Below, piece after piece: positions 25,072 to 62,897 of a stretch of 64,000 bases of DNA. Source of the DNA: Syntrophomonas sp. (GTDB taxonomy: Bacteria > Bacillota > Syntrophomonadia > Syntrophomonadales > Syntrophomonadaceae); NCBI GenBank assembly GCA_016841875.1, contig JAENYG010000008.1, forward strand, positions 7,950 through 71,949, read 5' to 3'. Both the position numbers and the translations under genes were made by a program. The notes below the pieces were generated by a model, which saw only the letters and a program-made list of their open reading frames with translations, made no database searches and was not told the DNA's origin. Each line of letters begins with the position of its first letter. Within the stretch, counting starts at the first letter, position 1.

Positions 25072-25641
25072 ATGAGGATTAAAGTCATATTTATATCAGT
25101 GGTTCTTGCTTTGCTAGTATTGACTATAGGTGGTTGTGGAAATAAAGAGGGAGTTCAAACTGATAATAATACACTCGATCCAGCAGTTAACACAACTTCT
25201 GAAATCGTGTTAGATCCAGCGCAGCTTCTGACCAAAGATGATGCAGAAAAATTGCTGGGTGAAGCAGTAGGCGACCCTGAGATTGTTGAAAATAGCATGG
25301 GGCAAAAGGTATACAATTATGCACCCGCAAAAGAAGGTACTGCCGTAAGATTCGTACAGCTATCTCTGGTGCAGACTGCTGCTATGCCTGATAAATTAAT
25401 AGATTCAGGATACACCGCGGCAAAACTTTATGATGATAGTATTGATCTTCTGGATGAAGCAAAGGAGATTAATGACCTGGGGGACAGAGCTTTCTGGGGA
25501 GGAAGCGGTTTAAAGATGGGTGCCGGCCTGCATGTCCTGCAGGGAGACGTATATTTTATCATTTCTGCAGCTCTGGGAAATGAAACTGACGATTACGATA
25601 ACTGCAGACAGCTAGCAGAAGAAGTTTTAAACAGGTTATAA
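25072..25641 (+). CDS. Lipoprotein of unknown function
   Basis: This 189-residue protein has a lipoprotein signal with lipobox TIGGC (Cys23) and then a soluble domain. The region LLTKDDAEKLLGEAVGDPEI followed by AVRFVQLSLVQTAAM and GDRAFWGGSGLKMGAGLHVL resembles the small DUF3558-like lipoproteins found across bacteria, which have an unknown cargo. GGAGGAGAT lies before the ATG. It stands alone between topB and the structured element at 25666-25939. Confidence 0.78.
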   Translation: MRIKVIFISVVLALLVLTIGGCGNKEGVQTDNNTLDPAVNTTSEIVLDPAQLLTKDDAEKLLGEAVGDPEIVENSMGQKVYNYAPAKEGTAVRFVQLSLVQTAAMPDKLIDSGYTAAKLYDDSIDLLDEAKEINDLGDRAFWGGSGLKMGAGLHVLQGDVYFIISAALGNETDDYDNCRQLAEEVLNRL

Positions 25642-25665
25642 AATTTAAACAGAAGAAAATGTGCC

Positions 25666-25939
25666 AGACCGATGACAGAAGCCCACAGGATTACAATTTG
25701 GACTCGCTGCGCTCGGAATTATAAAGAAATGAAGATCAAGGCATGAGGGAAGCCCACGATTGAGGCGTACCTGAGTACGCTGATTGAGCGGGCTTCTCTA
25801 TTATTTCGAACGCAGTGAGCCCAAACTGTGGTCCTGTAAGGGCTTTTTGAAATAACGCAGATATTCGTTTCCGCATGATACGTGAACCATGAGCGAACCT
25901 TAAATTGTGATCCCCGGAGGGAGCGTTTGTCATCGGTCT
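25666..25939. other. 274-bp element with perfect terminal inverted repeats and nested hairpins
   Basis: Perfect 12-bp ends AGACCGATGACA (25666-25677) and TGTCATCGGTCT (25928-25939) enclose an imperfect long stem. Its left arm (25678-25723, beginning GAAGCCCACAGG) pairs with its right arm (about 25798-25842) with G-U wobbles in place of mismatches. An inner hairpin (about 25750-25797) has GAAGCCC/GGGCTTC ends and GCGTAC-CTGA-GTACGC tip, with two GATTGAG copies. There is no credible ORF. This is either a structured RNA or a miniature transposable element. Confidence 0.5.
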
Positions 25940-25963
25940 AAAGGGGAGCAGTTGCTCCCCTTT
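25940..25963. terminator. Hairpin at the nitroreductase end
   Basis: AAAGGGGAGCA (25940-25950) and TGCTCCCCTTT (25953-25963) form an 11-bp palindrome next to the structured element, 14 bases beyond the minus-strand nitroreductase stop. Confidence 0.6.
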
Positions 25964-25976
25964 AGTGATATACCTT

Positions 25977-26546
25977 CTATTCCACCCAGCGAACTTTATC
26001 TTTCAGTTCAGGATCCAGGCGAGGAAGCGCTTCCGGAAAGCTAACCGGATACCCCAGCGGGGTAAGAGCTACAATTTCTTTGTTGTCTGGAATCTCCAGT
26101 ATCCTGCGTAGATTAGGTTCATCCTGCAGAGGGCCGGTCATCCAGCAGGTGCCCAAGCCCATAGCTCGTGCGGCCAGGAGTAGGTTTTCCATGGCCGCAC
26201 TGGCGCTTTCCAGGTTCATTTTGCTTATTCCTCGGATATCACTGGCATCAGTTAATACAACAATAAGTACCGGGGCTCCTCCATAAGTGCGAGCATAGCG
26301 AATGAATTCATCCCGCTGCGGCTGATCCCAGGAGGAAGTATAGCCATCAGCGATTATTGCATAACTATCCCCAAGCTGTATTTTCTTTTTTCCTGATACC
26401 ACGATAAATTCCCATTGCTGATTATTCATCCCGGATGGAGCGTAATTGGCAGCATTTAGTATCTTCAATATGTCTTCACGACTTACTGGATCCGGTTTAT
26501 ACTGGCGCACTGCCCGCCTTCCATAAATAACCTCGAAAAACTCCAT
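25977..26546 (-). CDS. Nitroreductase-family flavoprotein
   Basis: This 189-residue protein belongs to the FMN-dependent nitroreductase fold. RRAVRQYKPDPVSREDILKI and AANYAPSGMNNQQWEFIVVS are the FMN-binding N-terminal signature, ARAMGLGTCWMTGPL the conserved core, and TPLGYPVS the end motif. Members reduce nitro compounds, quinones or enone-type substrates, using NAD(P)H. GGAGG precedes the ATG. It has a terminator immediately downstream. No regulatory partner is visible; the next genes upstream are an unrelated regulator pair. Confidence 0.9.
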   Translation of the reverse strand: MEFFEVIYGRRAVRQYKPDPVSREDILKILNAANYAPSGMNNQQWEFIVVSGKKKIQLGDSYAIIADGYTSSWDQPQRDEFIRYARTYGGAPVLIVVLTDASDIRGISKMNLESASAAMENLLLAARAMGLGTCWMTGPLQDEPNLRRILEIPDNKEIVALTPLGYPVSFPEALPRLDPELKDKVRWVE

Positions 26547-62247: not shown

Positions 62248-62897
62248 AATCGAGTAGGAGGGGGTGACTAACCCCCGTCCTCTCACACCACCGCTCATGC
62301 GGTTCCGCAAGCGGCGGTTCGGCTTTAGTAAATTTGGCGTATGCCGTGCGTGGTTTATCTTCAATAACTAAGCGTTCTTATCTTTTGTCATCGGTTTCCA
62401 ACCTACTTTCAGATAAGCAACCTCTTTCGAGCAACTGCTATCTTCGTTATTTTAGTAAACCATGTCTAATTTACTGCAACCGTCGAGCCCTTTTCTCCAT
62501 TAGCTTTCACTAACTTCTTCGATACTACGACTCGAACTGACTTCTGCATGTTCAGCTTTACCTTGTGATAAAGGTTACTAAGTAGCGAATATTTTATCGC
62601 TATGCAGAGCGTACCATGCAGATCTCCCCCGTTAAGGCGCATAGTCTTTCACTCCATATACCTGCCACATTTACACAGCATACCTTCGGATAGTTATTGG
62701 GCTTCAGTTTGTGTTGCAACCTTACCCGATATGCCATGCCTTCTATGTGATTTCTGTCCGTCAGGCCAGAGATTTGCCATCCGACTTCCTTCAGATTCCG
62801 TCTCGCGGCGGACACCCTTGTCTTTGGCTGTACACTTCCCACTATCAGGGTGTGTTAGGGACTTTCACCCGTTAGACTATGCCCATGCAGGGCGAAC
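62248..62897 (-). mobile_element. Group IIC intron lacking its reverse transcriptase ORF
   Basis: On the minus strand the region starts with GTTCGCCCTGCATGGGC (5' end near 62897) and has GGGTGAAAGTCCC and AAGGGTGTCCGCC typical of domain I of group IIC introns. It contains domain V (GAACCGCC at 62320 to GGTGGTG at 62286) and domain VI (62285-62248) ending TCCTACTCGATT. The order and several motifs match the well-studied Oceanobacillus iheyensis IIC intron from memory. It is about 650 nt. No frame for a maturase is present, so domain IV has lost its ORF. The 5' end overlaps a perfect palindrome downstream of the dacF-like gene, which is the preferred IIC target type. Confidence 0.88.

Follow-up and report, generated by a model that had tools for sequence, protein, structure and literature searches.

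The 274-bp structure at positions 25666–25939 of the window (the whole stretch of 64,000 nucleotides that was analyzed) is a worn copy of a dispersed repeat family, and a single-copy RNA gene is excluded. The members of this family, referred to here as E, insert at stem-loops and duplicate the target stem-loop when they do so. We conclude that E is a family of stem-loop-targeting MITEs, presumably IS1182-like, in which the target-site duplication is the hairpin itself and the core shows covariation. Target duplications are normally a fixed few bp in length and are set by the transposase. That of E is whatever hairpin was hit, as would be expected if the enzyme reads the shape of the DNA and not its sequence or a distance along it. 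No publication that describes this repeat family, or duplications of whole hairpins, came to light; most subscription literature lay outside the search, and an earlier description is possible.

A BLASTN search of the host genome, which the sequence-only reading of this DNA had suggested as a check, returned 83 matching pieces of the window element at approximately 40 places. With 38 simple copies as its basis, a covariance model found 45 copies of E in the host, and two sister species have 48 and 22; the model matched 29 of the 63 genomes of the order (Syntrophomonas and relatives). A search of relatives found E in 24 of 101 genomes. Public records carrying the core motif come from Syntrophomonas and Syntrophomonadaceae, and searches of phages, plasmids and viral contigs found no E. 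According to crude reading-frame calls, almost all host-genome copies adjoin the 3' end of one gene or more, either after a + strand gene, before a – strand gene, or both, with eight beside a – strand gene only; the few divergent positions given by these calls are doubtful. Since both orientations occur, including the eight copies beside a – strand gene only, E does not depend on sense transcription with its neighbor.

In the flanks of simple copies the same hairpin is seen on both sides of E, and it is a different one at each locus; the left repeat abuts hairpin P1 of the element and the right repeat abuts its CTG end. With a direct repeat in the flanks counted at a score of at least 26, E lies between two copies of a locus-specific, usually terminator-like hairpin in 60 of 122 copies, compared with 2.6% of the cross-locus pairs that served as the control. 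In the 58 deduplicated cases, a stem of at least six pairs is present in 55 of the left hairpins (T1) and 57 of the right hairpins (T2), versus 29% of random stretches of equal length, the T1/T2 repeats have a median length of 24, and 20 of the pairs are identical. An A-run before a hairpin or a T-run after it is a feature of intrinsic terminators, and such runs are seen in 37 of the 58 cases (A before T1, or T after T2). The duplicated target hairpin is 17–45 bp in most cases; a few of the longest flank alignments extend into the element in tandem arrays, and repeat length is overstated there. E copies are found at stem-loops irrespective of sequence and orientation. Tandem T-E-T-E-T arrays, with up to three near-identical E units, are present at four loci (L025, L034, L046, and L367). 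At two loci (L026 and L032) the arms of the left hairpin are more complementary to each other than those of T2 or of the empty site, as if one had served as the template for the other.

Orthologous loci were fetched from the two sister species with the neighboring genes as probes. In seven filled/empty pairs (Table 1) the sister locus lacks E and carries exactly one hairpin, and the alignments of the two flanks overlap by 20–25 bp, which is the hairpin; loci with unrelated or different insertions were left out of this count. Because the sister orthologs without E carry the hairpin once in all seven of these clean cases, the target-site duplication is the whole stem-loop. This includes one of the arrays, where T-E-T-E-T at L046 faces a single T in the sister locus L258. 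The window locus was rejected as a clean empty site because its ortholog in sister species G002, in which E is absent and the terminator hairpin is kept, holds an unrelated stretch of approximately 100 bp; Rfam gave no match for this stretch, so that a group II intron remnant is unsupported there.

A simple E unit of approximately 150 bp consists of the hairpin P1, the long stem P2, and a conserved core with the consensus CAAGGC..GATTGAG.CGTAC..GTACG.TGATTGA..ATAACGC. P1 is a CAG-hairpin (TTGTCGAC AAA GTCGGCAA), P2 is a 21-bp stem (CAGRCCGATGAC..GAA / TTC..GTCATCGGYCTG) enclosing the unpaired motifs AGATCAAGGCATGA and GAAATAACGCAGATA, and P3 contains a symmetric loop, in which GATTGAG faces TGATTGA, and the GCGTAC hairpin. 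The terminal inverted repeats are the CAG..CTG outer ends together with CAGRCCGATGAC / GTCATCGGYCTG. In the family alignment (A1), compensatory changes are present in 34 of 50 pairs compared with a shuffle mean of 18.6, the covariation score is 0.305 versus 0.181 for shuffles and 0.06–0.10 for slid controls, and none of 500 shuffles reached any of the covariation measures. Selection for a single-stranded fold is real in E, and it was seen on other copies of the family and not on the long stem of the window copy. Cells with G-T outnumber those with A-C (199 vs 61), but as the shuffles lean in the same direction (265 vs 121) this excess points only moderately to the + strand as the one that folds. 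We propose that the conserved fold of the core is probably a strand-specific folded form, either ssDNA or RNA, that is recognized during mobilization. No curated Rfam model matched E at the gathering score (the best, weak match had 17.8 bits vs 47.2 needed), and a known RNA family was therefore rejected.

The window copy is in a convergent gene-end setting, as a + strand gene ends at 25641 and a – strand gene, which appears nitroreductase-like by eye, ends at 25977. It folds at –131.4 kcal/mol, compared with –85.3 ± 4.8 kcal/mol for shuffles (z = –9.65), and the covariance model matches its core at 25730–25808 (E = 1.3e-12). Relative to simple copies it is missing P1 as well as T1, the left target hairpin, and three nested inserts have made it larger (Table 1). 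Much of what had been described from the letters is borne out, namely the perfect 12-bp ends (AGACCGATGACA at 25666–25677 and TGTCATCGGTCT at 25928–25939, by direct reading), the inner GCGTAC hairpin with two copies of GATTGAG, the terminator-type hairpin at the boundary, the lack of any convincing reading frame in the window copy, and a long stem, put at about 40 pairs and found to have 37 within 25680–25844, four of them G-U. The conclusion drawn from that stem does not hold. The stem forms because the first of the nested inserts, the ~48-bp module X, pairs with the inverted X of the second over 40 bp, and as the long stem is therefore two inverted copies of a nested insert, the argument from wobble pairs fails. 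The arm differences, said to tend towards G-U compatibility, comprise four of G-U type, four of A-C type and one transversion (a manual count with the arms aligned by eye); hence the long stem of the window gives no sign of selection for pairing, and the differences are what would be expected of a single sequence present twice, in inverted and diverged form. A group II intron D1-D4-3 match (Rfam, 142.8 bits) is present at 62638–62812 on the – strand of the window.

Table 1. Features of the window copy of E and loci of the filled/empty comparisons.
Feature	Position or loci	Strand	Basis
E element, window copy, truncated at the 5' end and containing three nested inserts	25665..25939	+	Alignment of simple copies; BLAST and covariance-model matches
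Stem P2, outer part, 5' arm CAGACCGATGACAGAAG	25665..25681	+	P2 5' arm in family alignment A1
Nested insert X, ~48 bp, in P2 5' arm	25682..25729	+	Missing at the same place in simple copies; X also elsewhere in sister genomes
Conserved core, 5' part: AGATCAAGGCATGA, P3 5' arm, GATTGAG / GCGTAC hairpin / TGATTGAG, P3 3' arm GCGGGCTT	25730..25795	+	Covariance-model match; invariant columns of A1
Nested insert X, inverted, in P3 3' arm, GGGCTT on both sides	25796..25845	-	Simple copies join GGGCTT straight to TTTGAAATAACGC
Conserved core, 3' part TTTGAAATAACGCAGATATTCGTTTC	25846..25871	+	Alignment A1; BLAST matches at query positions 191-221
Third nested insert, diverged, inverted and X-like (judged by eye), in P2 3' arm	25872..25925	-	Same insert type and place in L009, L010, L027, L030
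Stem P2, outer part, 3' arm and element 3' end TTTGTCATCGGTCT	25926..25939	+	Family alignment A1
T2 terminator-type hairpin AAAGGGGAGCAGTTGCTCCCCTTT, insertion target, left duplicate T1 lost	25940..25963	+	Predicted hairpin; G002 ortholog keeps the hairpin, without E
Clean filled/empty pairs	L026/L248, L027/L250, L024/L266, L028/L280, L031/L264, L046/L258, L022/L285		

The sequence-only reading had argued for selection on RNA structure as opposed to a fresh inverted duplication. Selection on a folded single strand stands for the family, through the covariation in other copies, and does not stand for the window stem, which is two inverted copies of X. It had left open an undescribed RNA or a MITE, and the multiple copies with target-site duplications, together with the empty sites in sister species, settle this in favor of the mobile element; E has no matching Rfam family. 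Two outcomes had been named as refuting the proposal, a match to a known Rfam family, which was not found, and multiple copies with target-site duplications and no covariation, of which the copies and duplications were found together with clear covariation.

On balance, we favor a mechanism in which E is a MITE-like element that is moved by an IS1182-type transposase attacking the feet of extruded hairpins. On this reading E is a small transposable element of the non-autonomous kind, with stem-loops as its targets, for the most part the intrinsic terminators of genes, and it would depend on a DDE transposase from the IS1182 family supplied in trans. We propose that this enzyme recognizes the CAG..CTG ends, and probably also hairpin P1, and that it joins the 3' ends of the element to an extruded hairpin (cruciform) at both of its 5' feet. 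The subsequent gap repair would copy the hairpin to give a complete stem-loop on both sides. With a complete hairpin left on either side of E, the gene retains a functional terminator and the insertion would be nearly harmless, and E thus illustrates a route into gene ends that leaves the terminator intact.

IS1272 and TnSha1 of the IS1182 family, from Staphylococcus, insert in terminator hairpins in either orientation, with a part deleted and no duplication (PMC4923244). The model for IS1272 is an attack on a cruciform, in which the entire stem-loop would be duplicated if joining took place at the 5' feet, a route (pathway b) presented without an example (PMC5678879). What E does matches the prediction of pathway b. 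E and these elements are alike in targeting stem-loops, mainly terminators, with no sequence preference and in both orientations, and in having the ends of DDE transposons. They differ in that IS1272 deletes or replaces the stem-loop without target duplication, whereas E keeps and duplicates all of it, and in that E is a non-coding element of 150 bp with a covarying internal fold. E would be a natural insertion series for a pathway so far drawn only as a possibility, with dozens of filled and empty sites for testing it.

The insertion mode of E is shown; for the enzyme, we infer that an IS1182-type transposase is the likeliest of several that could move E, and only that, because no insertion sequence with E ends was found in the host, the duplications of the insertion sequences are short, and co-occurrence is weak. 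Specifically, no autonomous element with E ends, or sharing the 12-bp ends, was found in the host genome among the checked members of 47 exact GTCATCGGYCTG sites; those checked proved to be E copies or remnants of it, apart from a single chance match in coding sequence. IS1182-family elements occur in 27 of the 63 genomes of the order, and E and the IS1182-family transposase gene co-occur weakly across it. The ends of such elements in the order (L373, L378, L399, L406, and L371), which include CAGRCTGTGTGAAAAGTC, CAGAGTGTCAAAG and GAGACCACTGAAAAAGTC and beside the latter two CAGACTGTGTGAAAAGTC, may resemble those of E, the best pairings agreeing at 10–15 of 18 positions against a null mean of 4.8 in an A-rich, hand-anchored comparison, with agreement of up to 13–15 positions for CAGACTGTGTGAAAAGTC, CAGAGTGTCAAAG and GAGACCACTGAAAAAGTC. 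These elements sit in palindromes. The left end of L373 carries a P1-like hairpin (CTGTGTGAAAAGTCTTTCACACAG), and the L371 end abuts a hairpin as E does, at one end only. Unlike E, these elements carry a transposase and have duplications of ~4 or 9 bp, and the full copies examined had these short duplications and none of a whole hairpin. IS1182-family elements were also seen in GGGGACGGTTC or GGACAGTCC palindromes (L374, L397, L382, L399, and L406), some of these copies with a 9-bp (GAACCGTCC, GGACAGTCC) or ~4-bp duplication; the palindromes that hold them are a repeat family themselves.

It is unlikely that the folded core is itself the active agent, as a strand-specific RNA or ssDNA that would guide or license insertion at terminator hairpins outside known transposition pathways. 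We also consider it quite unlikely that E is a functional RNA gene or a 3'-UTR regulatory RNA beside tandem terminators, with copies that arose by ordinary gene duplication. This would account for the strong covariation, the asymmetry between G-T and A-C cells and the position at gene ends, but not for the E-free sites with a single hairpin in sister species or for flanking hairpins that match each other and differ in sequence between loci. Moreover, about one third of the host copies with clear neighbors adjoin the end of an opposite-strand gene only, and would be antisense. An RNA gene as the sole explanation is largely refuted.

Just as doubtful is that E is a REP/REPIN-type element moved on single-stranded DNA by a RAYT (Y1 HUH transposase), even though its hairpin structure, multiple copies, location at gene ends and strand-specific fold would all be in keeping with this, and Y1 genes are widespread in the order (present in 42 of 63 genomes, with eight matches in the host). 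Y1 transposition (IS200/IS605) is not expected to duplicate the target, as is seen at E; the seven Y1 genes examined in the host have no core or E end within ~1.4 kb, so that a Y1/RAYT partner is unsupported; and genome G054, which is 100% complete, has 19 matches to E and none to Y1. The host matches (PF01797) include G000:C42:141657 and C2:49170, and most are of RAYT-like length (254–304 aa). REPs resemble E in being multicopy, extragenic and hairpin-forming, and those with a CGTC tag are likewise without a known transposase (PMC3733652), but they measure 20–40 bp, bear a GTAG or CGTC tag and lack target duplications the size of a hairpin, compared with ~150 bp and CAG/CTG ends for E.

It is very unlikely that E is a retroelement-like (SINE-like) RNA converted to DNA at terminators by a group II-type RT, with target-primed insertion yielding the duplications. 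Group IIC introns use terminator hairpins as targets, as does E, and the RNA-like covariation and the group II intron elsewhere in the window might be cited in its favor. However, these introns are ribozyme retroelements, whereas E duplicates its target and is without a group II match in Rfam, the inverted-repeat ends and hairpin-exact duplications better fit cut-and-join transposition, and the nested inserts with terminal matches resemble DNA insertions. Finally, recombination or replication slippage at terminators without E insertion, which may explain the tandem arrays and is in line with the perfected T1 arms at L026 and L032, is highly improbable as the origin of the T1/T2 pairs, being contradicted for the basic pattern by E-free sites with a single hairpin and by locus-specific hairpins at dozens of unrelated loci.

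The stem-loop-targeting MITE that we favor is itself a host for other modules. Module X is seen at further sites within E copies, and in sister genomes it stands alone or in tandem. Among L357, L356, L354, L355 and the two window copies (25682–25729 and 25796–25845), it nests at GAAG/CTTC in E and is found outside E as well. Inserts are stacked three deep, since a further module (CCCCGTACCGGGGCAACTGATG..) nests inside X. The core in turn extends beyond E: a phylum-wide sample of 398 genomes has 24 that contain GAGGCGTAC..GTACGYYGA with AAGGC / AACGC flanks, versus a single match in total for the reversed-control core over the same 398. The motif, which covaries and has no entry in Rfam, recurs across Firmicutes. 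In other lineages (L340, L353, L054, and copies in G008) the core is in the loop of a terminator-like stem, and no separate flanking duplicates were seen in these. The core is also present in a Desulfobacteraceae genome (L143), and in Lachnospiraceae (L092, L099, L101, L122, L103, L105, L115, and L148) it occurs as an inverted pair in a different MITE, which has TACCCTC ends (30-bp TACCCTCWSTGAACAAAGG ends); the core thus travels in carriers with different ends. Near-identical copies of the carrier MITE in one Lachnospiraceae genome suggest recent movement.
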